NCBI GenBank assembly: GCA_030680995.1 | Contig: JAUXUM010000154.1 | Location: 1-45,105, forward strand | DNA from: Devosia sp. | GTDB lineage: Bacteria > Pseudomonadota > Alphaproteobacteria > Rhizobiales > Devosiaceae | Direction of reading: 5' to 3' | Length of the DNA: 45,105 nt | Part shown: in pieces, positions 1 to 20,410 of the stretch | Layout of the letters: each line of letters starts with the position of its first letter | Position numbering within the stretch: the first letter of the stretch is position 1 | Notes under the pieces: generated by a model | The model's database searches: none | What the model was told of the DNA's origin: nothing | Seen by the model: only the letters and a program-made list of their open reading frames with translations | Position numbers and translations under genes: made by a program

Positions 1-371
1 CCGCAGCCGGTCCCTCTCCATTTTCGCGCCTGAGCCCTTGGTCGGCGACACTTCGTTCCGGCTGCCCGCGGCGTTGTGCGCTTCGAGGTTCGAATGGGTC
101 ATCACCTGGTGCTCGATCACCGAAGCGGCGTCGAAACCCTCCAGCGCCACATCGAGTTCGAGCGTTTGGGCGCCGTGCCGATTGACGGCAAAGAAGGTGA
201 CAGCTTGAGGATTTTCACCCGGACGGCAGAGGCAAGGCCCTTGAGCACCTCGAGGCCCTCCTCGGGGTCCACCACCGGAAAATTGCGACCCGTGAGAAAT
301 CCGGAACGGGATGATGGGGACCGGGCCAAACCGGGAAACAATTTCCGTATCAGATTTTCCGGTTTAATCAA
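1..371 (-). pseudogene. Fused remnant: ArsR-type regulator start joined to GH51 arabinofuranosidase end
   Basis: Read on the minus strand, about 290 to 205 encodes a stretch beginning VVDPEEGLEVLKGL and ending VRVKILKL, which resembles the N-terminal helix-turn-helix start of a Rhizobiales ArsR-like regulator family. At about position 201 this frame stops making sense. A different frame then gives VTFFAVNRHGAQTLELDVAL and, further on, VIEHQVMTHSNLEAHN, which resembles the C-terminal beta domain of GH51 alpha-L-arabinofuranosidases. The sequence runs off the left edge of the window before any stop. In related genomes a regulator of this kind can lie next to arabinofuranosidase genes, so a deletion that removed most of both genes is my preferred explanation. 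A frameshifted GH51 gene alone is the alternative. No convincing start codon or ribosome site was found; a TTG at 371 is possible. Confidence 0.5.
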
Positions 372-571
372 CCGCGAGCGAACCTCGAACGTAGAGAGTC
401 CGCGGCGTCAGCCTATTGCGTCGAAATCGGCTCGCGCGCAACGGCTTGGCCGGGACGGGGAGCAAAAGACAAAAAGATTTTGCCGAGCCAAGCTGCAATC
501 GGGATGCCCCGATCCGATATATCCGGGATGTCAGATCAAGACCCGGCCAAGGGCCGGAAAAGGAGGCCACC

Positions 572-5546: not shown

Positions 5547-6150
5547 ATGACTTCGCCACGTGCCCTCACCGCCCGCAAGATCGCCGCGCTGACAAAGCAC
5601 AGCGTGCATCGCGTCGCTCCGTCCCTCTATGTGCAAATCCGGTCGCAGGGCACGCGCAGCTGGTTGTTCCGCTATAGCAGGAACGGCGAAAACCAGTGGA
5701 AGGGCGCACTCAGCCACCTGCTGCCGGCGATCTCCAAGGCGCAGGCGATCGTGCACCACAAGGCGATGCCCTACCGCGACGTTCCTGTTCTGATGGCCGA
5801 ACTGCTCGACAACAGCAGCGAGAGCGCCAAGGCGCTGGCCTTCACCATCCTCACGGTGGCGCGCACCGGCGAGACGATCGGCGCCACGCCATCGGAGATC
5901 AGCCTCGACCAGAAGCTATGGGTCGTGCCGGCAGAGCGCATGAAGGCGGGACGCGAGCATCGCGTGCCGCTCAGCGACGCGGCCCTTGGCCTGATCGGCA
6001 CTCCATCGCCCGAGAACAGGTTCGTGTTCACCGGCAGCAAGCCGAACCGCGGGCTGAGCAACATGTCCATGCTGATGCTGCTGCGTGGCCTGCGCGGCGA
6101 CGGCCTCACGGTCCACGGCTTCCGCTCGGCCTTCTCGACCTGGGCCCGCC
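5547..6150 (+). pseudogene. Decayed tyrosine integrase (P4-type)
   Basis: The N-terminal part (ALTARKIAALTKHSVHRVAP, then SWLFRYSRNGE) matches the arm-binding domain of P4-like integrases. At about 5700 it jumps directly to the catalytic domain: VARTGETIGATPSEISLDQK with the first catalytic Arg, then VVPAERMKAGREHRVPLSD and HGFRSAFSTWA with the His-x-x-Arg box. About 150 residues that normally lie between are missing, and the sequence diverges after TWA, before the catalytic Tyr. The product cannot be an active recombinase. Orientation and closeness to the 3' end of tRNA-Ser fit a former tRNA-integrated element. Confidence 0.85.
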
Positions 6151-6312
6151 TTGTTGCGCCTACGACCGCTTTGGAGAGGCTACCGGTAACGATCCCCACC
6201 CTCGACCAGCCCTCCCCTGCCAATGGGCGATGTGTGGGTGGTGGAGGCGCTTCGCTGGGTCGGGTCGGGATTGACCGATCCTTCCCAACTCCGTCTCAGG
6301 ACCCTCAAAACT
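6151..6312. other. Junction between integrase relic and IS5-type transposase
   Basis: No gene. It includes the 3' untranslated end of the transposase and a stretch around 6190-6232 (CCCTCCCCTGCCAATGGGCG) of a style I associate with intergenic repeats. The left terminal inverted repeat of the insertion sequence should lie here, but I cannot place it with confidence. Confidence 0.4.
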
Positions 6313-7259
6313 CTATGAGCAATGGCAATGTCTTGCGAGGCGCGTGGTGGGGACGCGGATGTGGGCGATGAGGATCCAGGCCTGTGCGCTTGCGATGGTC
6401 TGCTCCCAGTCCTTGGCCAGCCTTCGACAGCGGCCGAGCCAAGCGAATGTTCGCTCGCCCCATCGGCGCGGCAGAAGCTCGAAGCCTCTTGCGGTATCGG
6501 AGCACTTGACGATCTGCAGTTTCCAGTCGCCGATTTTGCGCAGCGCGCCGCGCAACTTTGGCCCGGCATAGCCGCCATCTGCAAAGACATGGCGGAGCCA
6601 GGGGAAACTGGAACGGATTGAGCCGAGCACTTTGACAGCGCCGTCGCGGTCCTGGATGCCGGCGCCGTGCACCACCAGACCCACCAGCAAGCCAAGTGTG
6701 TCGGTGACGATGTGGCGTTTGCGGCCCTTGATCTTCTTGCCGGCGTCCCCCGGGTCCGGCCATATGCCGGCCCGAGGACAGGCTCCGCCCCGTGGCCCGC
6801 CGCTTTCGGTGGTTTCACACTCTGGCTGTCGATGATGCCGGCTGAGGGAGATGCCTCGCGACCTTCGAGTTCGCGGACCATCATCACCAGATGGTGGTTG
6901 ATCGTCCGCGACAGGCCGCTGTCGCGCCAGTCATAGAAATAGCGCTGCACGGTCGAGGGCGGCGGAAACTCGCGCGGCAGCATGGCCCATTGGCACCCGC
7001 TCGAAGCCATGTAGAGGATGGCGTCGAGAACCGCTCGAAGGTCCGTCGTCCGGGGACGGCCAGTGAGCCGGGCCGGCGGCAGGAACGGCGCAACCAGCGC
7101 CCATTCCCGATCGGTCAGGTCACTTGAATAGCGGCGGCCACGTCGCGCATACTCGCGCCTGGCGGTTTCGGTCCAGGCCATGATGATCTCCGTTCAGTCC
7201 AGCAACCGAACTGAACCACAACCTGCTGAAACTGCTCAACTCTTTTCGGGTTGGGCTCT
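6313..7259 (-). mobile_element. IS5-family insertion sequence, transposase in two frames
   Basis: The transposase begins at ATG 7181 (MAWTETARREYARRGRRYS) and runs through DREWALVAPFLPP and GCQWAMLPREFPPPSTVQRY to IIDSQSVK near 6815. There the frame changes: the expected continuation TTESGGPRG is one base back. From there the second frame is open to the stop at 6313, through KKIKGRKRHIVTDT, the VFADGGYAGPKL acidic site region and ERTFAWLGRCRRLAKDWE. The two parts together make a complete DDE transposase of the IS427-like group. The right end near 7259 is judged from the start of foreign istA sequence; the left end is unresolved. Whether the frame change is programmed slippage at GAAACC or a one-base deletion is open. 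Confidence 0.8.
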
Positions 7260-7262
7260 AAC

Positions 7263-7364
7263 GTGCAGATCGAGGGTTTGAGCCATCGCGAGGCGGCACG
7301 CCGGTTTGGGATCGACCCACGGCCCGTGCGCAAGATGATGATGTTCTCGGTGCCGCCCGGTTAG
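7263..7364 (+). pseudogene. istA fragment (IS21-family transposase N terminus)
   Basis: The frame encodes VQIEGLSHREAARRFGID followed by RPVRKMMMFSVPPG and a stop, which corresponds to the N-terminal helix-turn-helix of IS21-type IstA (family pattern: VEGMSRREAARLFGIDRKTV, then SVPPGY). Only about 33 residues remain. It starts right after the IS5-type element and ends against an istB fragment of opposite strand. Confidence 0.8.
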
Positions 7365-7621
7365 CCGAGTTCCTCGATGATCAACAGTTTGTAGCCGGCA
7401 AGTTGGCGCTGCAAACGGAAGAGCCGCTTCTCATCGCGGGCCTCGATCAACTGGTGGACCAGCGCCGCGGCGGCAATGAAGCCGACCGACAGACCCTTCT
7501 GGCAGGCGGCGAGGCCAAGCCCGAGCGCGATGTGGCTCTTGCCGGTGCCCGAGTTGCCGACCGCGATGATGTTCTCGCGACGGGCGACATACCCGGATCG
7601 GGCCGCGGCGGCCATGCGGCA
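7361..7621 (-). pseudogene. istB fragment (IS21-family helper ATPase)
   Basis: The central part of an IstB ATPase: RRENIIAVGNSGTGKSHIAL contains the Walker A box GNSGTGKS, followed by GLAACQKGLSVGFIAAAALV and LAGYKLLIIEELG at Walker B. A TAA at 7361 ends it where the family continues with FVPLS. The N-terminal third is absent or scrambled. It lies tail to tail with the istA fragment, so the two pieces do not form a normal istA-istB order and must be rearranged. Confidence 0.85.
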
Positions 7622-7625
7622 GATT

Positions 7626-8519
7626 CTAGCCTGCGAATTCAAAGCTCGGCCGTCCTGCTCCGGCCATGCGGATCGACCATAGTCCGCCCTCTTGGGGCGT
7701 CTTTGCCAGCTCCGCGTCACCCATGCCGAAGCGGGCCGAGGTGACGTAGAGCGTGCGAAAGTCGGCGCCGCCGAAAGTGCAACTCGTAGGCGAAGAACAG
7801 GGCATCGCGATACTTGCCTCGGGGGTGCCGTCAGCCCCAAGCAGCGCGATCGCCGCCCCACCGGCGACGCGGGCATTGTAGACTTTGCCGGCAGCGTCTC
7901 GTGTCGAACCGTCGGGCAGACCGAGGCGCAGCTCCGGGCCAAAGGGCTGGCGGTTGGTGAGCGTTTGCAGACCGTCATCATAGTCATAGCGATAGAGCGC
8001 GTTACGCAGTGTGTCTGCTGTAATGAAGCCAAAGTCGTCGGTCCACACCATGGTGTTGGTGATGCCGAAATCGGCGCCGGTCAGACGCGTGACAGCGCCA
8101 TCAGGCGCGATGCGATAGATCGCGCCGCAATGGGCGGTAATCGGCTGCGGCGACCCATCGGCGGCGATATTGTCCTGCATCGTGCCGACCCAGAACGCCC
8201 CGTCCGGCGCAACCACGCCCTCGTTTAGCCGATTGCGAGGCAGGTCCGGCTCAGGAACCGCAAAAGTCTCAAAGGGCCCGCCCGGGTACCAGAGGACGAC
8301 GCGCCGGCGCAGTCCAACGATGAAGCCGCCCCGGCCGCGCAAGCCGATTGATGTCGGCAGTTCCGGTGTCTCCCAAGAGGTGTGCCCGCCGCTCTGCGGG
8401 TCGAGGCGATGGATGGCGCCGCCGACAATGTCGACCCAATAGAGGGCCTGTTCGGACACGGACCAGATGATGCTCTCGCCGACAATATTACGGACATCCA
8501 ACACAAGTTCGACGGTCAT
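7626..8519 (-). CDS. SMP-30/gluconolactonase/LRE family sugar lactonase
   Basis: A 297-residue six-bladed beta-propeller protein. SMP-30 landmarks in order are the N-terminal metal-ligand Glu in VGESIIW, WVDIVGGAIHRLDP, RNRLNEGVVAPDGAFWVGTM, TNTMVW and GLPDGSTRDAAGKVYNARV. The family opens sugar lactones (for example gluconolactone or arabinolactone) to the free acid with a divalent metal. It is transcribed away from the GntR/enolase operon and shares a 213-base control region with it, so it is probably in the same regulon and supplies sugar acids to the enolase-superfamily dehydratase. Exact lactone unknown. It ends only five bases from the IS21 scrap, so its 3' flank is a rearrangement point. 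Confidence 0.88.
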   Translation of the reverse strand: MTVELVLDVRNIVGESIIWSVSEQALYWVDIVGGAIHRLDPQSGGHTSWETPELPTSIGLRGRGGFIVGLRRRVVLWYPGGPFETFAVPEPDLPRNRLNEGVVAPDGAFWVGTMQDNIAADGSPQPITAHCGAIYRIAPDGAVTRLTGADFGITNTMVWTDDFGFITADTLRNALYRYDYDDGLQTLTNRQPFGPELRLGLPDGSTRDAAGKVYNARVAGGAAIALLGADGTPEASIAMPCSSPTSCTFGGADFRTLYVTSARFGMGDAELAKTPQEGGLWSIRMAGAGRPSFEFAG

Positions 8520-8708
8520 ATCGTTCACCTCAGGTGGGCGGAAATCAAAATCGGCGTGTGTCCCTCGCGCCTTCAGGGCCCAGCGCCGGCGAACGTTCGG
8601 CACGGGTAGAAGGATCGCATCGGCAAGACCCGTCTGCCTGCTTGCCTGTTGCCATTTAGAAAATCTCCCGGCAATTGACAACAGGTTGGCGCTATGCTGT
8701 TTGCACAA

Positions 8709-8735
8709 CATAAACTAGCTATCATATAGGTTATG
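8709..8735. promoter_or_regulatory. Dyad at the GntR gene start, candidate autoregulatory operator
   Basis: CATAAACTA (8709-8717) and TAGGTTATG (8727-8735) form an inverted repeat with 8 of 9 pairs matching around a 9-base centre. It overlaps the start codon at 8733 and lies in the divergent region between the lactonase and regulator genes. FadR-type GntR proteins often bind dyads of this size near their own promoters; binding here is inference. Confidence 0.5.
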
Positions 8736-9476
8736 ATGAAAACGACTTCCTATTTGCGAGCCGTCGATGCGTCGGACGAGGATGAGGCCCCGGGCAGCCT
8801 CGTCTCCAAAGTCATCCACGGCACTCGGCAGATGATCCGCTCGGAGGGGCTCAGGGTCGGCGATGTTCTGCCGAGCGAGTCTGCAATCGGAGAGCAGCTT
8901 GGCGTTTCCCGCGCCGTCGTCCGCGAAGCGTACCGCTCAATGGCCGCGCTCAAACTGATCAGCGTCGGCAACGGGCGCCGGGCGCGGGTATCGGCGGTCG
9001 ATCACGAGGTTCTGGCGCTGGTGATCGACCACGGCGTGCAGACCGATCAGGTGTCGGTGCAGCAGATTCTTGATGTGCGTCGCACAATTGAGATGCGCAC
9101 GGTGGGCTTGGCGGCGCTGCGACGCACAGACAAGGAAGCGCGCGAGATCAAGGCGCTGGCGGCAGGAATGCGCGCCGATTTCTTCGACATGGACAAGGTG
9201 ATGCAGCACGACATCACCTTCCACGAAACGATCGCGCGCGCGTCCCGCAACCCGATGTTCGCGCTCATCGTCGGCTCGTTCCACGTCGTCACGCGCCAGA
9301 CCTGGCGCATCGGCTGGGTGGCGCGCGAGACCGATGCCGACCGCTCCGACAATGTCGCCTGCCATGAAGCGATCGCCGCCGCCATTGAGGTAGGAAACCG
9401 CCCGGTCGCGGAGGCACAGATGGCAGCCCATTTCGACAATACGGTCAAGATGCTGCTCGCCAGCGGCATCAACTGA
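8733..9476 (+). CDS. GntR family regulator, FadR/FCD subfamily
   Basis: A 247-residue transcription factor. The winged helix occupies about residues 22-95 (GDVLPSESAIGEQLGVSRAV, then VREAYRSMAALKLI). The C-terminal FCD ligand domain contains the metal-site pattern DITFHETIARASRNP and a late CHEAIAAAIEVGN. This subfamily usually senses an acidic metabolite such as a sugar acid. It is the first gene of the cassette A plus-strand unit, 17 bases before an enolase-superfamily gene, so the likely ligand is that enzyme's substrate or product. The ATG at 8733 lies inside the candidate operator with no good ribosome site, so initiation may be weak or downstream. Confidence 0.9.
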   Translation: MMKTTSYLRAVDASDEDEAPGSLVSKVIHGTRQMIRSEGLRVGDVLPSESAIGEQLGVSRAVVREAYRSMAALKLISVGNGRRARVSAVDHEVLALVIDHGVQTDQVSVQQILDVRRTIEMRTVGLAALRRTDKEAREIKALAAGMRADFFDMDKVMQHDITFHETIARASRNPMFALIVGSFHVVTRQTWRIGWVARETDADRSDNVACHEAIAAAIEVGNRPVAEAQMAAHFDNTVKMLLASGIN

Positions 9477-9493: not shown

Positions 9494-10690
9494 TTGAAGA
9501 TCAAGAAGATCGAAACGATCCGCATCGACGAGCATGCCAATCTCTGTTGGGTGCAGGTGCATACCGACGCGGGGCTGGTGGGGCTCGGCGAGACATTCTT
9601 CGGCGCCAAAGCCGTCGAAGCCTATATTCACGAGACCGCCGCGCCGCTGCTCCTCGGCAAGAATCCCCTGGAGATCGACGGTATCTCCAGGGCGCTCACC
9701 GGCTACCTGGGTTTTGCCTCGACCGGGGTCGAAATGCGCGGCAATTCGGCCATCGATATCGCGCTTTGGGACCTGTTCGGGAAGGTCACGAGCCAGCCGA
9801 TCGCGCAGCTCCTCGGCGGCTTCACCCGCAAGGAGATCCGCACCTACAATACCTGCGCCGGTACCGCCTACATGAAGGAGGGCGGCCAAACCGTCTCCAA
9901 CTACGGCCTCAACACGGGCCGGAATCAGTACGCCGACCTCGACGCCTTCCTCCACCGCGCCGATGATCTCGCCGAGGAACTGCTTGCCGAGGGCATCACG
10001 GCGATGAAGATCTGGCCATTCGACGTCGCCGCCGAAAAAGCCAACGGTGCCTATATCAGCGCCGCGGACCTGAAATCGGCTCTGTCGCCCTTCGAGAAAA
10101 TCCGCAAACGCGTTGGCGACCAGATGGACATCATGGTCGAGTTTCATTCGATGTGGCAGCTCTTGCCGGCCATGCAGATTGCCCGCGAACTCGCCCAGTT
10201 CAAGACCTTCTGGCACGAAGACCCCATCAAGATGGACTCGCTGGGCGACCTCCGGCGCTATTCCGAGGCGTCGCGGGCACCGCTCTGCGCTTCCGAGACG
10301 ATGGCCACCCGCTGGGCCTTCCGCGACCTGCTGGCAACCGGCGCCGCGGGCATCGTCATGCTCGATCTGTCCTGGTGCGGCGGCATCTCGGAAGCCCGCA
10401 AGATCGCTTCAATGGCGGAGGCCTGGCATCTACCCGTGGCGCCCCATGACTGCACCGGGCCGGTGGTTCTGGCTGCCTCAACTCATCTTTCACTGAACGC
10501 GCCAAACGCGCTCGTTCAGGAAAGCGTGCGGGCCTTCTACCGCACCTGGTACGGCGATCTGGTGACTGCACTGCCCAAGGTCGAGAACGGGACGATCACC
10601 GTCCCGCCCGGCCCGGGGCTCGGCATGGCGCTTCATCCAGATCTCGATACGCGGTTTTCGGTCACCAGGAAGGTGAGCGAGCCCGGCTAG
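9494..10690 (+). CDS. Enolase-superfamily (mandelate racemase/MLE) sugar-acid dehydratase
   Basis: A 398-residue enzyme with the N-terminal capping domain and a C-terminal barrel. Likely catalytic residues are Lys172 in AMKIWPFD, metal ligands Glu216 (MVEFHS), Glu242 (WHEDP) and Glu268 (ASET), and the Asp291-His318 dyad (VMLDLSW and PHDCTGP). Such enzymes abstract a proton alpha to a carboxylate, and most sugar-operon members dehydrate aldonic or aldaric acids to 2-keto-3-deoxy acids. The first metal ligand being Glu and the KxW instead of KxK pattern place it outside the classic mandelate racemase site; specificity cannot be read. It starts at TTG 9494 with GGAG upstream. Confidence 0.87.
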   Translation: MKIKKIETIRIDEHANLCWVQVHTDAGLVGLGETFFGAKAVEAYIHETAAPLLLGKNPLEIDGISRALTGYLGFASTGVEMRGNSAIDIALWDLFGKVTSQPIAQLLGGFTRKEIRTYNTCAGTAYMKEGGQTVSNYGLNTGRNQYADLDAFLHRADDLAEELLAEGITAMKIWPFDVAAEKANGAYISAADLKSALSPFEKIRKRVGDQMDIMVEFHSMWQLLPAMQIARELAQFKTFWHEDPIKMDSLGDLRRYSEASRAPLCASETMATRWAFRDLLATGAAGIVMLDLSWCGGISEARKIASMAEAWHLPVAPHDCTGPVVLAASTHLSLNAPNALVQESVRAFYRTWYGDLVTALPKVENGTITVPPGPGLGMALHPDLDTRFSVTRKVSEPG

Positions 10691-10717: not shown

Positions 10718-11704
10718 ATGAGGAAGCTTCACAAACTGCTGGCTATCGGGGGCGCCATCCCGGCGATGCTGACTGTGCCCGCTCTGGCGCAGGACGCGCC
10801 GCTCAACATCGCGTTCACGATCCACTCGTCCGCATCGAACACGTTCTGGCAGGCGGTCAAGAAGGGGTTCGAGGATGGTTGCGGCAAGGTAGCAGCCAAC
10901 TGTCAGATGATTTTTACCCAGACCGAAGGGGCGGTAGAACAGCAGGTCGCCAATATGCAGGCGGCAATCGCCGGCAAGCCCGACGCGCTGATCACCTCGA
11001 TCGTCGACAACCAGGCGTTCGACCAGATCATCGCCGACGCGCGCGCCCAGGGCATCATTGTCATCGCCAGCAACGTCGATGACCTCGAAGGCGCCGCCGG
11101 CAATGCGCGGCAGGCTTTCATCGGCCAGGGCTTCACTGCGGCCGGCTACGCGCTGGCCCAGGCGCAGGCGAAGAACTTCCCCGCGGATGGTCCCATCCAT
11201 GTGCTGGTGGGCATATCGGCACCCGGCCAGAATTGGTCAGAGCAGCGAGGGGGAGGTGTGATGAAGTTTCTCGAAGAATTCAAGACCGCCAATCCGGATC
11301 GCGAGATCGCGTTTGAACGCATCGACTCGGGTACCGATCTCGCCGTGACCGGCGATCGCGTCGGCGCGTATCTTAATGCGCATCCCGAGACCACTGCCTA
11401 TTTCGATACCGGGTTCTGGCACGCCGCCGTGGCCCGCGTGCTTCGCGACCGCGGTGTTGCGCCGGGCACGGTGCTGCTCGGCGGCTTCGATTTGGTCCCC
11501 GAAGTGCTCCAGGAAATGAAGTCAGGTTATGTGCAAGTTCAGGTCGACCAGCAGCCGTACATGCAGGGCTTCATGCCGGTCATGGAAGTTTATCTCTCCA
11601 AGAAGGTCGGCCTCGCTCCTGCCGACATCAACACCGGCTTGGGCATTGTCACCCCGGACATGGTTGACGGCATCATGGCGCTCTCCACCCAGGGTGTCCG
11701 CTAG
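10718..11704 (+). CDS. Ribose-type ABC transporter periplasmic binding protein
   Basis: A 328-residue type I sugar-binding protein. The signal peptide is residues 1 to about 25 (ending VPALA before QDAP). The mature protein has two Rossmann-like lobes, with NIAFTIHSSASNTFWQAVKK at the start and GKPDALITSIVDNQAFDQII in lobe one. The second lobe contains TAYFDTGFWHAA and LGGFDLVPEVLQEMKSG. AGGGAGGA lies just upstream of the ATG. It is followed by a strong hairpin and then permease and ATPase genes, the B-C-A order of fructose/ribose-type importers. The ligand is unknown; neighbours suggest a monosaccharide or its acid. Confidence 0.92.
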   Translation: MRKLHKLLAIGGAIPAMLTVPALAQDAPLNIAFTIHSSASNTFWQAVKKGFEDGCGKVAANCQMIFTQTEGAVEQQVANMQAAIAGKPDALITSIVDNQAFDQIIADARAQGIIVIASNVDDLEGAAGNARQAFIGQGFTAAGYALAQAQAKNFPADGPIHVLVGISAPGQNWSEQRGGGVMKFLEEFKTANPDREIAFERIDSGTDLAVTGDRVGAYLNAHPETTAYFDTGFWHAAVARVLRDRGVAPGTVLLGGFDLVPEVLQEMKSGYVQVQVDQQPYMQGFMPVMEVYLSKKVGLAPADINTGLGIVTPDMVDGIMALSTQGVR

Positions 11705-11771: not shown

Positions 11772-12758
11772 GTGACCGTCCTGAAAAACCTGCTCAAGAT
11801 CTATATGGAAAAGCCCGAGGTCGCCGGCGTCGTGCTTCTCATATTGCTGGCCATTGTGTTCCAGATCCGCTCCGACGGGGTGTTCCTCAATACCGAGAAT
11901 ATCCGCGGGGTCATGGGTATCCTGCCTGAGGTTGGGCTCGTCGCTATCGGGGTCACCATCCTGATGATCTGTGGAGAGTTTGATCTATCGGTCGGCTCAG
12001 TGTTCGCGCTGATGCCGATGTCGGTCGCCATAATGCTCAACAACGGAATACCGTTCTGGCCCGCGGTGCTGATCGGCCTCGTGATCTGTGCAGTCATCGG
12101 CTTCACCAACGGCCTCATTACGCTGCGATTCTCCATCCCGAGCTTCATCACCACCCTTGGTATGCTGTTCCTCGCCCGCTCGCTGACCGTTGTCATCTCC
12201 GGCGGCTTTCCCCCGCTGCTGCCCGTCGACATTCCCAGCGCCATGTTCACCCAGTATGTCGGGCCCGGCGGGCTGTTCCGCATGTCGTTCATCTGGTTCT
12301 TGGTGATTGCCATGCTGGCCGCCGGCCTCATGAGCCTTACCAATGTCGGCAACTGGATCAGGGCGACCGGCGGGTTCCAGGAGGCGGCCGCGTCCATGGG
12401 CATCCCGGTCAACCGCGTCAAGATCGGCTGCTTCATGCTGTGCTCCATGCTGGCGGGTTTTGCCGGTCTCATCCAAGTGCTGCGCCTCGGTTCGCCGCTA
12501 CCCTCGATCGGTGAGGGGCTCGAGCTACAGGCCGTGGCAGCCGCGGTGATCGGCGGCGCGGCGCTAACGGGTGGCATCGGCACCGTTACCGGTGCCATCG
12601 TCGGAGCGCTGCTGATCCGGGTTATCGACAATGGCCTGGTTCTTTCGCAGGTCGATGCCAACTGGTTCAAGTTCGCCGTTGGTGGCCTTCTGATCCTCGC
12701 CGTCATCGGCAATTCCTGGCTGCGCCGCACCGCGCGCCGCATCAAGGTGGAGTCTTGA
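11772..12758 (+). CDS. Ribose-type ABC transporter permease (RbsC/FrcC-like)
   Basis: A 328-residue inner-membrane permease with about eight to ten hydrophobic helices. Family landmarks are GEFDLSVGSVFAL, TNGLITLRFSIPSFITTLGM and, near the C terminus, AVAAAVIGGAALTGGIGTVT, the cytoplasmic loop that contacts the ATPase. The start is GTG 11772, preceded by AAAGAAG. Its stop overlaps the spacer directly before the ATPase start, so the two are cotranscribed. It moves the ligand captured by the 10718 product. Confidence 0.93.
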   Translation: MTVLKNLLKIYMEKPEVAGVVLLILLAIVFQIRSDGVFLNTENIRGVMGILPEVGLVAIGVTILMICGEFDLSVGSVFALMPMSVAIMLNNGIPFWPAVLIGLVICAVIGFTNGLITLRFSIPSFITTLGMLFLARSLTVVISGGFPPLLPVDIPSAMFTQYVGPGGLFRMSFIWFLVIAMLAAGLMSLTNVGNWIRATGGFQEAAASMGIPVNRVKIGCFMLCSMLAGFAGLIQVLRLGSPLPSIGEGLELQAVAAAVIGGAALTGGIGTVTGAIVGALLIRVIDNGLVLSQVDANWFKFAVGGLLILAVIGNSWLRRTARRIKVES

Positions 12759-12760
12759 TC

Positions 12761-13492
12761 ATGGCCGCCCCGCTGGTATCGCTGCGCGGACTGCACAAAT
12801 GGTATTCTGGCGTCCATGCCCTCAACGACGTCTCGCTCGACATCATGCCGGGGGAAGTCGTCGGCCTGGTCGGGGACAACGGCGCCGGAAAGTCGACACT
12901 GATCAAAATTCTATCGGGCGTGCACGGACCTGACAAAGGTAAGATCATTTTCGACGGTCGTCCCGTGCGGATCAGATCGCCGCGGGATGCCATGAACCTC
13001 GGCATCGAGACCATCTATCAATACAATTCAATGGTCCCCTCGATGTCGATCTCGCGCAACTTGTTTATCGGGCGTGAGCCGCTAAAATTCGCCATCTGCG
13101 GCTTCGGCCTGCTCGATCAGAAGCGCATGCGCGAGGAGAGCGTCAAAGCCGTTGCCGATGTCGACCTGCACCTCCGCTCCCCCGACGCGCTGGTCGGCGA
13201 ACTCTCTGGCGGTCAGCGCCAGGGCGTCGCAATCGCCCGCGCCATGCACTTCAAGTCGCGCCTGCTCGTCCTCGACGAGCCTACCAATCACCTCTCGGTC
13301 AAGGAAACCAACAAGGTTATCGGCTTTGTCCAGGGTCTCAAGGCGCAGAATCTCACCGGCATCTTCATTTCCCACAATATGCACCACGTCTTTCAGTCGT
13401 GCGAAAGGATCGTCGCAATGGCGCGCGGCGAAGTGGTTTTTGACCGGCCAACCGCCGAAACGAGCATCGACGAAGTTCATGGCTATCTCTGA
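12761..13492 (+). CDS. Ribose-type ABC transporter ATPase, single nucleotide-binding domain
   Basis: A 243-residue ATPase. Walker A GDNGAGKST is at 38-46, the signature LSGGQ at 148-152, and Walker B LLVLDEPT at 168-175, followed by NHLSVKE and the switch His in IFISHNMHHV. Unlike RbsA, which has two fused ATPase domains, this has one, as in FrcA of fructose importers, so it should act as a homodimer. The first ATG at 12761 lies two bases after the permease stop. Twelve bases separate it from the next gene. Confidence 0.93.
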   Translation: MAAPLVSLRGLHKWYSGVHALNDVSLDIMPGEVVGLVGDNGAGKSTLIKILSGVHGPDKGKIIFDGRPVRIRSPRDAMNLGIETIYQYNSMVPSMSISRNLFIGREPLKFAICGFGLLDQKRMREESVKAVADVDLHLRSPDALVGELSGGQRQGVAIARAMHFKSRLLVLDEPTNHLSVKETNKVIGFVQGLKAQNLTGIFISHNMHHVFQSCERIVAMARGEVVFDRPTAETSIDEVHGYL

Positions 13493-13504: not shown

Positions 13505-14731
13505 ATGCCGGGCGGCATACTCAAGCTTTATCAGGAACACTGGTTCCCATTCGCCAACCTGCCTGCCGCGCTCGCCGAGTTTACGCGCAGCACCAGTATC
13601 AAGACCGAGCTGGTCTGGGACCAAGTAGGCATCGGCACCATCGAGCGCATGTTCGATCAGATGATCGGCTCCTTCACCAAGCCGAATCCGGTATATGATC
13701 TCATCTGCACCGATGAGATCATCCTTCAAGAAATGGCACGCAAGGGCCTGGTCGAGGACTTGAGTGCTCGCATGGTGCGCGACGCCCTGACGCTCGACAA
13801 CGTCTCCGACGCGACGCGTCATGCAGTGACTTATGGGAGTGCGATTGTCGGCCTGCCCTGCGTAAACGTCTCCTCAATGGTGATGTATCGCGCCGATCTT
13901 CTGGAGAAATACTGTCTGCCGGTGCCCAGCGACTGGGCGGAACTCAAGGAGGTCGCCGCGAGCCTGCAGAATGCCGCGCGGCGCGACGGACGTGCCGAGT
14001 TTTACGGCTTCGAAACGCGCGGCGCCGCGGGCGGCGGCCATTCGGTCTTTACCTTCGGCTCCTTCATCGGCTCCTTCGGCGCCCGCTGGCTGACTCCCGA
14101 CGGTGAGGTCGAAGCAATTTCAGACGGTCACCGCCAGGCCATGGCGATCTATGTCGACCTGCTGCGAACAGTAGCGCCCCCGGATCAGGGCGACATCAGC
14201 TTCGTTGAAATGCGTCGCGACATGGCTTCGGGCCGTGTCGGCATGATCATGGACGTCGGCATGGAATATGCCCACGCGATCAAGAACGTCCCCGAGGTCG
14301 GCGACAAGGTGGGCATCGCGCTGGTTCCGGCGGGGCCGGCGGGCCGCGCCCCCAACCTCTACGCGCCGCCCTGGGCGATCCCAGCGAATTCCGACATGAA
14401 GGAGGAGGCTTGGGAACTCTGCAAGTACCTGACCTCAGACCGGCAACTGCTCGAGGACGGCCTAATGGCGAACGCCATCGAAACCGCCTCGCTCCCCGCG
14501 CTCTACTCACCCGAATTCGACCGGCATTTCCGCGAGGACATCCTGGCAGTCACGCGAGCCTGCCGTGCCATCCAGAAACAGGAACGGCCTTTCAGCGCAA
14601 TGGGGGTCGACGCCTGCACCGTGGTGGGCGATGCTGTCAACGCCGCCCTCGTCGGCAAGCTCTCCGAGGAGGATGCCTTGCAATCGATCTACGCCGGCCT
14701 CGCCACCCTTCGCCGGAGGAACCGACGATGA
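13505..14731 (+). CDS. Family 1 solute-binding protein lacking a signal peptide
   Basis: A 408-residue protein with the two-lobe fold of family 1 extracellular solute-binding proteins: a start like a mature protein (MPGGILKLYQEHWFPF), FTRSTSIKTELVWD, PVYDLICTDEIILQEMARKG, and later PPWAIPANSDMKEEAWELCKYL. There is no signal sequence or lipobox. The in-frame codon upstream is the stop of the ATPase gene at 13490, so none can be added by moving the start. No cognate family 1 permeases lie nearby. The gene overlaps the next SDR gene by four bases (ATGA). It could be a cytoplasmic ligand carrier or sensor, or a binding protein that lost its leader. Confidence 0.85.
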   Translation: MPGGILKLYQEHWFPFANLPAALAEFTRSTSIKTELVWDQVGIGTIERMFDQMIGSFTKPNPVYDLICTDEIILQEMARKGLVEDLSARMVRDALTLDNVSDATRHAVTYGSAIVGLPCVNVSSMVMYRADLLEKYCLPVPSDWAELKEVAASLQNAARRDGRAEFYGFETRGAAGGGHSVFTFGSFIGSFGARWLTPDGEVEAISDGHRQAMAIYVDLLRTVAPPDQGDISFVEMRRDMASGRVGMIMDVGMEYAHAIKNVPEVGDKVGIALVPAGPAGRAPNLYAPPWAIPANSDMKEEAWELCKYLTSDRQLLEDGLMANAIETASLPALYSPEFDRHFREDILAVTRACRAIQKQERPFSAMGVDACTVVGDAVNAALVGKLSEEDALQSIYAGLATLRRRNRR

Positions 14732-15468
14732 CCGATCTTTCCGGCAAGCGCGTTCTTCTGACCGGCGCCCTCGGCACGCTCGGCCAAGCCCAGGCCGCAG
14801 CCTTCACCGCCGCCGGTGCGGAAGTGGTGCTTCTCGATCGCCCCGAACTCGCCGAAAAGGGTGCCGCCTTTTCTGCGACCCTCGACGGCTCGACCTATGT
14901 TGGGTTGGATCTCAATGATCTTCACGCCGCCGAGACACGCATCAAAGCGGTCTCCGGCGAGCGCCCGGTCGATATCCTCATCAACAATGCGGCGCTGATC
15001 ATCAACAAGCCGTTCGAGAACTTCTCGATCGAGGAGTACGAGGACCAGATCCGCGTCAATTCCTCGGCGGCCTTCGTGCTGACCCGCGCCGTGGCACCAG
15101 GGATGAAGGCCAAGGGCTACGGCAAGATCGTCAATTTCTGCTCGGTCACGCTCAACGGGCGCTGGGATGGATACGTGCCCTATGTCGCTTCCAAGGGCGC
15201 CATGCTGGGTCTGACCAAGTCACTGGCGCGCGAACTCGGGCCGCACGGCATCAGGGTCAATGCCGTATCGCCTGGCGCCGTGGTCTCGGAAGCGGAGGCG
15301 AGGGTGTTTGCGGATCGTTTGCAGCAATACAACGACTGGATTCTCGAGAACCAGTGCCTCAAGGAACGCATCCAGCCCCAGGCCGTGGCTGACCTCGTGC
15401 TTTTCCTGGTGTCCCCTTCCGCAGACATGATCACCGGACAGAACTTCCACGTCGACGGGGGCTGGTAA
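14728..15468 (+). CDS. SDR family oxidoreductase, probable sugar dehydrogenase
   Basis: A 246-residue classical short-chain dehydrogenase. The cofactor site TGALGTLG begins at residue 12, Asp37 in LLDRPE after strand two favours NAD over NADP, and the catalytic set is Ser139 (NFCSV), Tyr152 and Lys156 (YVASK). The C terminus ITGQNFHVDGGW is typical. The likely role is oxidation of an aldose to its lactone or of a sugar acid hydroxyl. It overlaps the signal-less binding protein gene by ATGA and is five bases from the epimerase-like gene, so the three are translated as a block. Confidence 0.9.
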   Translation: MTDLSGKRVLLTGALGTLGQAQAAAFTAAGAEVVLLDRPELAEKGAAFSATLDGSTYVGLDLNDLHAAETRIKAVSGERPVDILINNAALIINKPFENFSIEEYEDQIRVNSSAAFVLTRAVAPGMKAKGYGKIVNFCSVTLNGRWDGYVPYVASKGAMLGLTKSLARELGPHGIRVNAVSPGAVVSEAEARVFADRLQQYNDWILENQCLKERIQPQAVADLVLFLVSPSADMITGQNFHVDGGW

Positions 15469-15472
15469 TTCC

Positions 15473-16348
15473 GTGCAAGCCGTCACGATCCGCAGCGGCC
15501 CCCTCGTCGCCGAGATCGCGCCCCGGCTTGGCGCAGGCATGCTGCGCTTCGAATGCGACGGCGTTCCACTCTTCCGCGGCACAGGCGCAGACGCCCAGGG
15601 GATGGATCTCGCCAGCATTATCCTCGTGCCGTGGTCGAACAGGATTTCCGGCGGCGGCTTCAATTTCGAGGGCAGGTTCCATGCCCTTGCACCCAACGTG
15701 CCCGGCGAGACATATCCGATCCATGGCAACGGTTTTCAGCTTCCATGGACCGTTACGGCCGCCACAGGCGATGCGGTCGAACTGGCCCTCGAGTCGGAGG
15801 GACCGAACCCCTACATTTATGTCGCCCGCATGCGCTATGCGTTGACCAACGACGCGCTGTCGATGGAATTGACGGTCACCAATCGCGCCGTCATCCGCCT
15901 CCCATTCGGCCTCGGCTTCCACCCCTATCTGGCGCGCACGCCCGACACCGAAATTCGTGCGGACTTCGGGCAGGTCTGGCTCGAAACGGCCGACCATTTG
16001 CCCGCAGCGCTGGTCGATATTTCCGCCCGGCCCGACTGGAATTTCCGGCAGGGCAAAGCCCTTCCCGCCGACTGGATCAACAATGCCTTTCCCGGTTGGG
16101 ATGGCCGGGCGCTCGTCACGTGGCCAAGCCGCCATTTGACCCTCGCGATCGAGGCGTCCGCCGCCTTGTCCTGCGCTATCCTCTACTCACCCTCGAAAAC
16201 CGCAGAGTCTTTCTGCTTGGAGCCAGTCACCCATGCGGTCGATGCTATCAACGGTCCCGGTGGGGCCGAGGCCAACGACATGGCCGTGCTCGATGCAGGC
16301 GAGTCGCAGACGGTCTCCTGCAGATTTCGAGTCGGCGACGCGCAATAG
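15473..16348 (+). CDS. Aldose 1-epimerase-like protein (galactose mutarotase fold)
   Basis: A 291-residue protein starting at GTG 15473. Fold landmarks are YPIHGNGFQLPWTV with a conserved His, GFHPYLAR with the second catalytic His, and CLEPVTHAVDAIN with the catalytic Glu. It should interconvert anomers of a free sugar or sugar acid so that the dehydrogenase receives the right one. It is the last gene of the cassette A operon and has a counterpart in cassette B at 25779. Confidence 0.87.
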   Translation: MQAVTIRSGPLVAEIAPRLGAGMLRFECDGVPLFRGTGADAQGMDLASIILVPWSNRISGGGFNFEGRFHALAPNVPGETYPIHGNGFQLPWTVTAATGDAVELALESEGPNPYIYVARMRYALTNDALSMELTVTNRAVIRLPFGLGFHPYLARTPDTEIRADFGQVWLETADHLPAALVDISARPDWNFRQGKALPADWINNAFPGWDGRALVTWPSRHLTLAIEASAALSCAILYSPSKTAESFCLEPVTHAVDAINGPGGAEANDMAVLDAGESQTVSCRFRVGDAQ

Positions 16349-17138: not shown

Positions 17139-18707
17139 ATGAGCCAAAATCCGATCGATGAGACTGAGCCGTCCGACTTCGCAGCGACCCGCCGGTCGTT
17201 CCTGAAATCCGCGATGGCAGCCGGCCTCGCCGGCACTGCTCTTGCAGGCCTTTCGAGCATCATGCCGCTGCGTGCCTTCGCGCAGGACGGCGCGCCTACC
17301 GGCACCATCACCTATGGCAATGCCGAGCCTCCGACCTCCAACTACTGGGACCCGGCGGCGGGCTTCGGCCTCGTGGACGAGCAGGTCGCGTCGCTGGTCC
17401 ATGATACCCTCATCGCCTTCGACGAGGCAGGCAACATGGTGCCCTCGATCGCGACCGCCTGGGCGCTCGTGAGCGACACCACAGTGGCACTGACCCTCCG
17501 CACCGACGCCAAATTCCATGACGGCACGCCCGTCACCGCCGACGACATCAAGGCCAGTATCGACCGCCTGGGTGAAGGCAAGCTGGCACAGTCGATGGTC
17601 GCTACCCCTGGTATTTCGGTGACCGTCAAGTCACCGACCGAGATCGAAGTGGTCTCGCCAACCGCCTTCGGCGTGGTGCTTAACGCGCTCGCCTTCGTCA
17701 AGATCCTGCCTAAGGCCAACATCGACAACCCCGACAACTTCAAGGTCGGCGCGCTCGGTTCGGGCCCCTACAAATTCGTGTCGTACACGGGCAATGACGT
17801 CACCCTCGAAGCCAACGCGGACTACTGGGGCGGCGCGCCGAGGATCAAGACCGTGATCTTCCGCTACATCGAGGACGCCCAGGCCCGCATCAACGCGCTG
17901 CTTTCCGGCCAGGTCGACATCACCACCCGCGTTTCGTCCGAAGACCTGGCGCGTGTGGAGGGCAACGCCGATTTCTACATCAACAAGCAGACCCCGCCGG
18001 CCCAGATCATCGCCATCTACCAGCACAACGGCCCGCTCGGCGACCTGAAGCTGCGGCAGGCGGTCGCGCATGCGATCGATCGCGAGGGCATCGCCAAGTC
18101 GATCATGCGCGGCGTCAACCCCGTGGGCTTTTCGAGCCTGCCGACGACGTCGCCGTTCTACACCCCGCTCGAACCCAAATTCGAGTTCGACATCGAGAAG
18201 GCCAAGGCTCTGCTCGCCGAGTCCGCCTATCCCGATGGGGTGACGCTGCGCATGTCGACCTCGACCCTGGTGCCCAGCCAGATCGAGATCGACCAGGTGA
18301 TTGCCGCCTCGCTGCAGCAGATCGGCATTCAGGTGGAAGTTGAGCGGCTGGAAGTGGGTGCGTTCCGCTCGTCCTACAACACCTACGACATCAACCTGAA
18401 CACGCTCGGCGTATTCAACAACGACCCGGACTTCCTGCTCGGCTTCTATGTCGGCGGCACGGCCGAGGCGGTGTTCCACTACAAGGATGACGCCTACGCC
18501 GCATTGCATTCCGCGCAGCGGGCCGCCACCCCGGAGCAGCGCCCGGCTGCCGTTACCGCCGCCGCGCAATACCTCTGGGACAACCAGGTGACACTCTATC
18601 TCTCCGATGAAATCTGGTATTTCATCGTCAACAAGCGTGTCCTGGATTACGTTCGGGCCCCACTGGTCGGCGAAAACCTGCTGCCGAAAGTCTCGGTAGC
18701 CTCCTGA
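17139..18707 (+). CDS. Dipeptide-type ABC transporter binding protein (family 5), Tat-exported
   Basis: A 522-residue family 5 solute-binding protein. The N terminus has a twin-arginine signal (TRRSFLKSA, Arg18-Arg19) with likely cleavage after AFA at residue 48. The mature part shows VALTLRTDAKFHDGTPVTAD and later LGSGPYKFVSYTGND, both standard for the family, then LRQAVAHAIDREGIAKSIM. Family 5 proteins bind peptides, but many in alphaproteobacteria bind oligosaccharides or glycosides; the catabolic neighbours favour a sugar-containing ligand. It is the first gene of a ten-gene operon behind the 17063 promoter and is followed by a hairpin. Confidence 0.93.
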   Translation: MSQNPIDETEPSDFAATRRSFLKSAMAAGLAGTALAGLSSIMPLRAFAQDGAPTGTITYGNAEPPTSNYWDPAAGFGLVDEQVASLVHDTLIAFDEAGNMVPSIATAWALVSDTTVALTLRTDAKFHDGTPVTADDIKASIDRLGEGKLAQSMVATPGISVTVKSPTEIEVVSPTAFGVVLNALAFVKILPKANIDNPDNFKVGALGSGPYKFVSYTGNDVTLEANADYWGGAPRIKTVIFRYIEDAQARINALLSGQVDITTRVSSEDLARVEGNADFYINKQTPPAQIIAIYQHNGPLGDLKLRQAVAHAIDREGIAKSIMRGVNPVGFSSLPTTSPFYTPLEPKFEFDIEKAKALLAESAYPDGVTLRMSTSTLVPSQIEIDQVIAASLQQIGIQVEVERLEVGAFRSSYNTYDINLNTLGVFNNDPDFLLGFYVGGTAEAVFHYKDDAYAALHSAQRAATPEQRPAAVTAAAQYLWDNQVTLYLSDEIWYFIVNKRVLDYVRAPLVGENLLPKVSVAS

Positions 18708-18720
18708 ACGCAGTATTTGT

Positions 18721-18745
18721 GACCGGCGCGGCTGGCGCGTCGGTC
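18721..18745 (+). terminator. Hairpin after family 5 binding-protein gene
   Basis: GACCGGCGCG (18721-18730) pairs with CGCGTCGGTC (18736-18745) with one mismatch and a five-base loop. There is no following T-run, so it is more likely a message-stabilising or partial attenuating structure than a full terminator. Confidence 0.55.
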
Positions 18746-18767
18746 CGTTGTTCTCCCGGAGCCGGTC

Positions 18768-19694
18768 GTGGGTTCGTTTGCACTCAGAAGAATCCTGCAG
18801 TCGATCATCATTGTGGTGTTGATCGCCATCATGGTCTTCATTGTGCTGCGCCTTTCGGCCGGCGATCCGGCACGCATCCGCGCCCCGGTATTCGCCCGGC
18901 CGGACGTCATCGAGCAGTATCGTCGCGACTTCGGCATCGACCGGCCGCTGCTCGACCAACTGGGCTCGTTCCTGCTCGGCGCGCTGCGCGGCGATTTTGG
19001 GCAATCCTTCCGGTTCCAGGCGCCGGTGATGAACCTCATCCTTGACGCCCTGCCGAGGACGCTGCTGCTCGCCGGCGTGTCGCTCTTCACCTCGCTCGCC
19101 ATCGCCGTTGGGCTCGGCAGCATGGCGGCGCTCAGGCCGCGCTCGATCTGGGGCTGGCTGAGTTCAGGCCTCGCGGCGCTGGGGCAATCGGCGCCGGTGT
19201 TCTGGTCGGGAGCGATCCTCGTCCTCGTCTTCGCCGTCGGTTTCCGCTGGTTGCCGGCCGGTGGCTTCACCGGCCCCGAAAGTCTGGTGCTGCCGGCGAT
19301 CGCGGTGACGCTGTCGATCCTGCCCACGCAGCTACGGGTGCTGCGCGCCTCGATGGAGGCGGTGCTGAAGGAGGAATATATCCGCACCGCGGAAGCCTTC
19401 GGGCTCAAGCAGCGCCGCATCACCTTCGTCTATGCGTTGAAGAACGCCTGCCTGCCGCTGCTCACGGTCATCGGCGTCGATATCGGCTACCTGCTCGGCG
19501 GTGTCATCGTCGCCGAAGTGGTCTTCGCCTTCCCCGGCATCGGTGAGCTGGCGCTCGTCGCCCTCAATGCCCGCGACTACCCGCTTATCCAGGGCATTAC
19601 CGTTGTCACGGCGAGCACCTTCGTCGTCGTAAACCTCTTGATCGACCTGCTCTATGGCCGGATCGATCCCCGCATACGCTTGGAGCGATCATGA
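18768..19694 (+). CDS. Dipeptide-type ABC transporter permease (DppB-like)
   Basis: A 308-residue permease with about six helices. It has the DppB N terminus (FALRRILQSIIIVVLIAIMV), the RDFGIDRPLLDQ loop, and the ATPase-contact segment EYIRTAEAFGLKQRRITFVY before LKNACLPLLTVIG. Start GTG 18768. Its stop overlaps the deacetylase start by ATGA (19691-19694), so the deacetylase is made in fixed proportion with the permease. Confidence 0.93.
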   Translation: MGSFALRRILQSIIIVVLIAIMVFIVLRLSAGDPARIRAPVFARPDVIEQYRRDFGIDRPLLDQLGSFLLGALRGDFGQSFRFQAPVMNLILDALPRTLLLAGVSLFTSLAIAVGLGSMAALRPRSIWGWLSSGLAALGQSAPVFWSGAILVLVFAVGFRWLPAGGFTGPESLVLPAIAVTLSILPTQLRVLRASMEAVLKEEYIRTAEAFGLKQRRITFVYALKNACLPLLTVIGVDIGYLLGGVIVAEVVFAFPGIGELALVALNARDYPLIQGITVVTASTFVVVNLLIDLLYGRIDPRIRLERS

Positions 19695-20410
19695 ATATTC
19701 TCGCCATCGGAGCCCATCCCGACGACATCGAAATGCAGTGCGCCGGCACTCTCGCGCTTTACGCCCGGGCTGGACACAGGGTCATCATGGCCGTCGCCAC
19801 CAATGGCAATGTCGGATCGCCCACGCATACCCGCAAAGAGATCGGCGATATCCGCAAGAAGGAGCAGAAGGCCTCCTGTGCGCTGATCGGCGCCGAGCTG
19901 ATCTGGATGGATTTCGACGACGAGTGGCTGTTCGACACCCGCGAGACGCGCGTCCGTTTCATCGACGCGATCCGCGAGGCCAACCCGGATGTCATGATCA
20001 TCCACGGGCCGACCGACTACCACCCCGACCATCGCATTTCCGGTCGGGTCGCCGAGGACGCGCGCATTCCCGCCTCCGTGCGGCTGGTCGAAACCAGCCT
20101 GCCCTACATCAAGAAGATTCCTCATATCTTCTACATGGACAACCCGGTCGGGCTCGACTTCGAGCCCGAAGCCTTCGTGGACATTTCGTCGACCTTCGAG
20201 ACCAAGCGGGCGATGCTGCTCAAGCATGAGAGCCAGGACACCTGGATGCGCGCCGTCTATGGCGAGCACACCTCGATCGCCGACATGATGACGCAGAACG
20301 CCGCGCTGCGCGGCAGCGCCTCGGGCGTCGCCTATGCCGAGGGCTTTCGCGAAGTGAAGACCTATCCACGCACCGGCTCCTTTGCGCGGCTCCCGGGATT
20401 CGGCGGGTGA
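19691..20410 (+). CDS. PIG-L/LmbE family zinc deacetylase inside the transporter operon
   Basis: A 239-residue deacetylase of the PIG-L family (MshB, GlcNAc-PI de-N-acetylase, LmbE relatives). The zinc motif AHPDD is at residues 8-12 and the second motif HPDH at 111-114, following HGPTDY. There is no signal peptide, so it acts in the cytoplasm. Family enzymes remove acetyl groups from N-acetyl-sugar derivatives. It overlaps the upstream permease by ATGA and the downstream permease by GTGA, so it is inserted between the two permease genes with no spacer. The simplest reading is that the imported ligand carries an N-acetyl or other acyl group removed straight after entry. The ligand itself is unknown. 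Confidence 0.9.
   Translation: MNILAIGAHPDDIEMQCAGTLALYARAGHRVIMAVATNGNVGSPTHTRKEIGDIRKKEQKASCALIGAELIWMDFDDEWLFDTRETRVRFIDAIREANPDVMIIHGPTDYHPDHRISGRVAEDARIPASVRLVETSLPYIKKIPHIFYMDNPVGLDFEPEAFVDISSTFETKRAMLLKHESQDTWMRAVYGEHTSIADMMTQNAALRGSASGVAYAEGFREVKTYPRTGSFARLPGFGG

Follow-up and report, generated by a model that had tools for sequence, protein, structure and literature searches.

Family 1 (CUT1-type) binding proteins such as MalE3 (6dtq), a trehalose/maltose-binding protein (1eu8), SmoF (7yzs) and a polyol-binding protein (4rya) are the closest described relatives of the protein considered here, which we call SBP1. A second point of comparison is AmiC of the Pseudomonas amidase operon, a cytoplasmic sensor with a binding-protein fold of type I (the amide/branched-chain type), which acts on the antiterminator AmiR.

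SBP1 is encoded in a 45,105-nucleotide stretch of Devosia sp. DNA (contig JAUXUM010000154.1), referred to throughout as the window. It resembles the CUT1-type proteins in its SBP_bac_1 family match, in its two-lobe fold and in starting at the mature N terminus, at 20-26% identity to 6dtq, 1eu8, 7yzs and 4rya, but differs from them in having no leader, no CUT1 permease in the window and more cysteine, and in being linked to a CUT2-type transporter that has a binding protein of its own. With AmiC it shares a binding-protein fold without a leader and a place in a catabolic gene cluster, and the two may work in a similar manner. SBP1 is not a member of the AmiC group, however, since the AmiC fold is of type I, and whereas AmiC is paired with AmiR, no AmiR-like antiterminator is present among the eight window genes scanned, in which a GntR protein is the sole regulator. 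We suggest, with a probability of roughly 0.5, that SBP1 is a cytoplasmic ligand-binding accessory (a sensor or modulator, or a buffer) of a sugar or sugar-acid pathway; that it is leaderless, cytoplasmic and pathway-linked appears very probable.

The available part of PMC9602780 notes that SBP profiles also pick up cytosolic single-domain proteins with other functions, gives around 1% of the automatically retrieved proteins as predicted to be cytosolic, and cites the AmiC-AmiR work for cytosolic single-domain proteins of other function, so that proteins of this kind are known in outline. Among the matches listed in a search of full-text literature, with subscription papers mostly outside its range, no leaderless family 1 protein in a sugar-acid operon is described, and neither of the two leaderless families treated below is described in those matches or in the available parts of PMC9602780 and PMC2953401. 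The first-pass annotation had called such a use of this fold seldom described, which is borne out for the SBP1 family in the literature searched but goes too far for leaderless proteins with SBP folds as such, for which AmiC and the available part of PMC9602780 provide precedents.

The SBP1 gene and its surroundings

The DNA across the end of the upstream ATPase gene and the start of SBP1 reads TGA TCG GGG AAC CAA ATG (Table 1). As the first-pass annotation had noted, the ATPase stop lies upstream in the SBP1 frame; with four sense codons between it and the start, which follows the stop by 12 bases, no in-frame leader can be encoded. The overlap with the SDR dehydrogenase gene that it had reported is likewise present, as ATGA at 14728-14731.

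Table 1. Features of the window around the SBP1 gene.
Feature	Position	Strand	Basis or remark
SMP-30/gluconolactonase family protein (SGL), divergent from GntR gene	7626..8711	-	profile match
GntR/FCD regulator	8733..9476	+	Pfam
Sugar-acid dehydratase, enolase superfamily (MR_MLE)	9494..10690	+	Pfam, NCBIfam
SBP4, the transporter's own binding protein (Peripla_BP_4), ordinary leader MRKLHKLLAIGGAIPAMLTVPALAQ by eye	10718..11704	+	Pfam
CUT2-type permease (BPD_transp_2)	11772..12758	+	Pfam, NCBIfam
CUT2-type sugar ABC transporter ATPase, one cassette only	12755..13492	+	Pfam, NCBIfam
TGA stop of ATPase gene	13490..13492	+	in frame with SBP1, four sense codons ahead of SBP1 ATG
SBP1, leaderless family 1 solute-binding protein, 408 aa	13505..14731	+	ORF, Pfam, predicted fold, orthologues with same start
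SDR dehydrogenase, start overlapping SBP1 stop	14728..15468	+	ORF, Pfam
Aldose 1-epimerase family protein	15473..16348	+	Pfam

SBP1 matches the Pfam family SBP_bac_1 over nearly the whole profile (positions 12-305 of 307; E 8e-26; 92.2 bits against a cut-off of 26), while NCBIfam returned no family for it at E <= 0.001 and neither collection returned an enzyme family. Two predicted structures of moderate confidence, with mean pLDDT values of 66 and 71 and weakest at residues 173-182, 283-285 and 322-365, fall in the same fold class. The second and better of these matches whole mature sugar-binding proteins: among the 50 PDB matches listed, it has their two-lobe fold with Z of 25.4-30.0 over 348-375 residues and is aligned from residue 1-5 to residue 402-408. 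Its residues 3..407, for example, align to 3..405 of the 6j9y chain (Z 28.6), and residues 3..403 to 19..409 of the 6dtq chain (Z 29.8). This end-to-end alignment indicates that SBP1 begins at the processed N terminus, and together with the Pfam match it agrees with the earlier description of a full-length family 1 protein that starts where the mature protein should.

The neighbouring genes look like an oxidative sugar-acid route, to judge from the families of the SDR, the SMP-30 lactonase, the dehydratase and the epimerase-family protein. In such pathways generally, an SDR converts the sugar to a lactone, an SMP-30 lactonase acts on it, and a dehydratase follows. In the longest lactonase frame the SGL match covers residues 77-327, so the gene probably starts within that frame. 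The ATPase, a single cassette of 245 aa, is short beside its best-matching NCBIfam sugar ATPase models of about 490-510 positions, and its orthologues in SBP1 operons are also 243-264 aa long.

The only permease among the eight window genes scanned around SBP1 is the CUT2-type protein, and tblastn with two CUT1 permeases as queries gave no hit of that type in the window. A second transport cluster lies downstream (17139-20410), in which a family 5 binding protein (17139-18707), its leader Tat-like by eye, is followed by a permease of the BPD_transp_1 family (18768-19694) and a protein of the PIG-L deacetylase family (19691-20410). Since that permease goes with the family 5 protein, the view that SBP1 has no partner permease holds for the window. 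On its other side the operon adjoins mobile-element debris (5547-8032), comprising a phage-integrase-family fragment (5547-6371, +), an IS4/5-type transposase split across two frames (6180-7181 and 6313-6690, -) and, adjoining the SMP-30 gene, part of an IstB-like ATPase (within 7361-8032, -).

The missing leader in orthologues and relatives

The orthologue search covered 101 relatives, the contigs of GTDB (searched with six short peptide patterns from the window SBP1), 397 genomes of the order, 385 of the class and two families (11 and 28 genomes). Twelve distinct orthologues were kept, the window included, the other 11 being 53-62% identical to the window SBP1. Repeats were merged (L006/L020, L007/L021, L022/L030, L024, L025 and L026 equal L008, L019, L009, L028, L029 and L031, respectively), and L014-L017 from Terribacillus and Virgibacillus (21-23%) and the partial L018 (31%) were dropped as non-orthologues. 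L010 comes from a MAG labelled Rhodobacteraceae and L011-L013 from MAGs labelled Alphaproteobacteria; the weakest of the twelve is L027, on a 3 kb contig from a genome with 8% contamination.

All twelve share a common start, in which M and a short run of residues lead into the first strand (mostly RVYQE.W); ahead of the start, most have a Shine-Dalgarno-like stretch rich in purines. By eye and by upstream hydropathy, none has an export signal. An in-frame stop lies 25 codons or fewer upstream in six (the window, L008, L009, L012, L029 and L027). In the remaining six the frame stays open for 37 to 644 codons upstream, and over the 40 codons before the start the highest ten-residue mean hydropathy lies only between -0.97 and 0.78; leadered proteins of the window's own genome reach 1.73-2.91 where the script placed the start correctly. 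Two hydrophobic stretches upstream of SBP1 tell against this pattern, one in L027 that is in frame (ten-residue mean 1.93) and has no ATG, GTG or TTG preceding it, and one in L019 (2.07) that is in a different frame from SBP1. The first-pass annotation had proposed that orthologues be checked for a normal in-frame leader, and none of the 11 others carries one; with the same leaderless start in all of them, loss of a leader by frameshift in a single copy is ruled out. In three orthologue pairs dN/dS was 0.024/0.485, 0.133/0.862 and 0.122/1.231 (ratios of 0.05-0.15), and with dN so far below dS the leaderless SBP1 is under purifying selection.

The suspicion that the gene has simply decayed, has been given a wrong start or reflects a fault of assembly or annotation draws on the closeness of the SBP1 start to the ATPase stop. 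It is, however, scarcely credible given the start common to twelve orthologues and the selection seen in the three pairs, and given that an ATPase gene lies directly upstream in only five of the twelve loci (the window, L010, L011, L013 and L031), something else taking that place in the other seven.

SBP1 proteins are also richer in cysteine, with 3 to 9 residues (mean 5.5) in the 12 orthologues compared to a mean of 2.1 in leadered SBP_bac_1 proteins (p 5e-5), although the 12 are not independent and in some counts the leader, or a few residues ahead of the true start, is included. The leadered set comprised 26 of the 30 such proteins of the window's own genome, without L035 and L056 (start misplaced) and L105 and L106 (uncounted). 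The higher content lends mild support to a reducing compartment for SBP1.

Those 30 proteins, leadered by eye, belong to 33 SBP_bac_1 matches in that genome; the remaining three are leaderless and consist of SBP1, one protein on contig 206 (L104 5932-7092, -) and one on contig 8 (L107 78-about 1200, -). The distant relatives L014-L017 all have lipoprotein-like leaders. The contig 206 and contig 8 copies adjoin CoA-transferase genes and resemble a larger family, labelled HPRGYDP after the motif W.HPRGYDP that stands near the N terminus in four of the five members examined (the contig 8 copy, L108, L109 and L110). The contig 206 copy reads WDHRRCWGP at this position, yet groups with the family at 100/100. 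Its neighbours are a CoA transferase (Pfam CoA_trans), an IclR regulator, an RraA-like protein, an MR_MLE enzyme and a divergent SDR; the ORF adjoining the contig 8 copy reads by eye as a CaiB/BaiF CoA-transferase. With the contig 206 copy as query, tblastn found relatives in 143 of 72,556 plasmid records at E <= 1e-20. In three annotated plasmid neighbourhoods a CaiB/BaiF CoA-transferase adjoins the gene in all three, a MaoC protein in two, and a sugar ABC transporter lies in the stretch in all three; the three proteins there begin at the motif itself or no more than about ten residues away. Public records name plasmid members 'extracellular solute-binding protein' or 'ABC transporter substrate-binding protein'.

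Both families are thus leaderless family 1 binding proteins in catabolic clusters, but the HPRGYDP family has a CoA-transferase neighbour and none occurs among the eight window genes scanned around SBP1. In a tree of 31 sequences, which did not include the contig 8 copy, SBP1 and HPRGYDP form separate clades, each at 100/100, and the tree does not support the two as one clade. For each of them a leadered protein is nearer than the other leaderless clade, with weaker values (85/78 and 91/84), in a part of the tree where deep support is modest and long branches meet. The separate clades suggest that the leader was lost more than once, although a single origin of both families is conceivable.

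Genomic company and divergence

Across the order, SBP1 occurs in 5 of 397 genomes and SBP4 (at E <= 1e-80) in 20, and all five lie within the twenty. The hypergeometric probability of this overlap is 1.9e-7 by genomes, which is too strong because of kinship, and 2.6e-4 by genera, all 3 SBP1 genera being among the 10 SBP4 genera of 142. Of the 385 genomes sampled across the class, SBP1 was found in just one, that of the window. Among viral contigs, 173 candidate stretches were examined and none encodes a relative, and no plasmid record matched SBP1 at 60% or more.

In the eight whole genomes that contain SBP1, the association is with the dehydratase and the CUT2-type transporter. All eight have the transporter, with SBP4 at E <= 1e-60 and 43-100% identity (lowest in G823), and a dehydratase orthologue (best match 68-100%), including the three in which SBP1 is on a different contig. 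A GntR orthologue was found in five at E <= 1e-30 and an SDR orthologue in only four at E <= 1e-50, the four without it all belonging to one genus (g30); a further genome of that genus, G822, has the dehydratase and the transporter without SBP1. The SDR is thus not what SBP1 goes with. The coupling to the SDR proposed in the first-pass annotation does not extend beyond some loci, since half of the whole genomes have no SDR orthologue and the SDR gene does not directly follow SBP1 in 8 of 12 loci; as an obligate partner it is ruled out. A common regulator also fails as a partner, GntR not being universal, and with no regulator common to all SBP1 genomes a fixed pairing of the AmiC kind is weakened.

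The position of the gene varies considerably. SBP1 lies between the ATPase and SDR genes in four loci (the window, L010, L011 and L013), after the ATPase in L031 and after the dehydratase in L012; it is divergent from the operon in L008, L028 (where an SMP-30 lactonase gene sits between SBP1 and the GntR gene) and L029, and away from it in L009, L019 and L027. In L019 (6493-8214, genome G074) the detached SBP1 adjoins an IlvD/Edd-family dehydratase gene, of another class than the dehydratase of the operon. A CUT1-type permease is found in 3 of the 12 loci (L011, L028 and L029) within the fetched stretches, which extend 1 to 9 kb either side, and a transport role is conceivable there; the CUT1 transporter of L028 has its own leadered binding protein (MRKLPRIATALVATLSLSPAALAA).

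Conversely, SBP4 occurs without SBP1 in 15 of the 20 genomes. In 11 of these the stretch shows GntR, dehydratase and SDR, and in 10 of the 11 the ATPase and SDR genes are immediate neighbours, in that order. Among the remaining four, G162 shows no SDR in the stretch, G299 breaks off where its contig ends, and G393 and G311 have a different arrangement. SBP1 is thus optional to the operon.

Identity matrices for 11 loci reveal two transporter types, with SBP4 38-53% identical between types, and two SBP1 types that are mismatched to them: in L028 and L029 an SBP1 of one type accompanies a transporter of the other, and G354 and G074 show the converse. In a mirror-tree comparison SBP1 correlates with the transporter subunits at r of only 0.26-0.32, compared to 0.96 for the transporter subunits among themselves, and with the dehydratase at 0.42 (10 loci). 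The weak correlation with the transporter disfavours SBP1 as one of its fixed subunits, and points to a shared small molecule more than to a fixed protein complex.

Possible roles of SBP1

We propose that a family 1, CUT1-like sugar-binding protein lost its export signal before the known SBP1 orthologues diverged, and that the product is kept in the cytoplasm. There it would most likely bind a small metabolite of the pathway (the imported sugar, its lactone or its sugar acid) and would serve as an accessory, acting as a sensor or modulator under ligand control or as a buffer holding the metabolite. Between these we place sensor or modulator slightly ahead of buffer; the first-pass annotation had likewise suggested sensing or buffering, besides delivery of substrate.

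SBP1 might instead have become an enzyme, with a cleft that catalyses a step such as isomerisation, epimerisation or hydrolysis of the sugar, lactone or acid. The loops RGA.GGGH, PPDQ..ISF.EM and DVG.EYA are strongly conserved in the 8 of 12 orthologues that were aligned, in which C119, H179, D227 and E235 are invariant; beyond these eight, the last loop reads EVG.EYA in L028, L029 and L031 and the second reads PPEQ in L027. SBP1 is made alongside pathway enzymes in four operons, and binding-protein folds have turned into enzymes elsewhere, as in the NMT1/THI5-like proteins and MqnA/MqnD. However, SBP1 is missing from three-quarters of the genomes with the transporter, most of which show the GntR, dehydratase and SDR genes, and no enzyme family in Pfam or NCBIfam claims the protein; we consider an enzyme rather unlikely. 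Less likely than this is a dedicated subunit on the inner face of the transporter, for instance a brake that senses imported sugar. The constant presence of the transporter and the placement of SBP1 directly after the ATPase gene in five loci would suit such a subunit, but the shuffling of SBP1 types against transporter types, with its low correlation, would not.

That SBP1 is still a transport protein, reaching the periplasm by another route or docking on a distant CUT1 permease, seems quite improbable. Its model has the full transport-type fold and CUT1 permeases lie near it in three loci; against this stand the lack of a leader in all twelve orthologues, of a CUT1-type permease in the window, the separate leadered protein of the L028 transporter, and the cysteine content above that of leadered relatives.

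With the HPRGYDP family in mind, one may tentatively extend this suggestion: ABC importers may have yielded sugar-binding proteins to the cytoplasm, probably on more than one occasion, where they would handle metabolites of catabolic pathways and recognise a pathway intermediate, whether as soluble carriers, as modulators under ligand control or as a new type of enzyme. If such leaderless proteins stay inside, supposed parts of transport would belong to metabolism or to its control, and would be misread in ligand screens aimed at transporters. The SBP1 family is small, clearly bounded and tied to the dehydratase and the transporter, so few tests might suffice to find its ligand. Across a group of related bacteria, a protein with the shape of a sugar catcher is maintained without an export signal, together with genes for the uptake and breakdown of a sugar or sugar acid.
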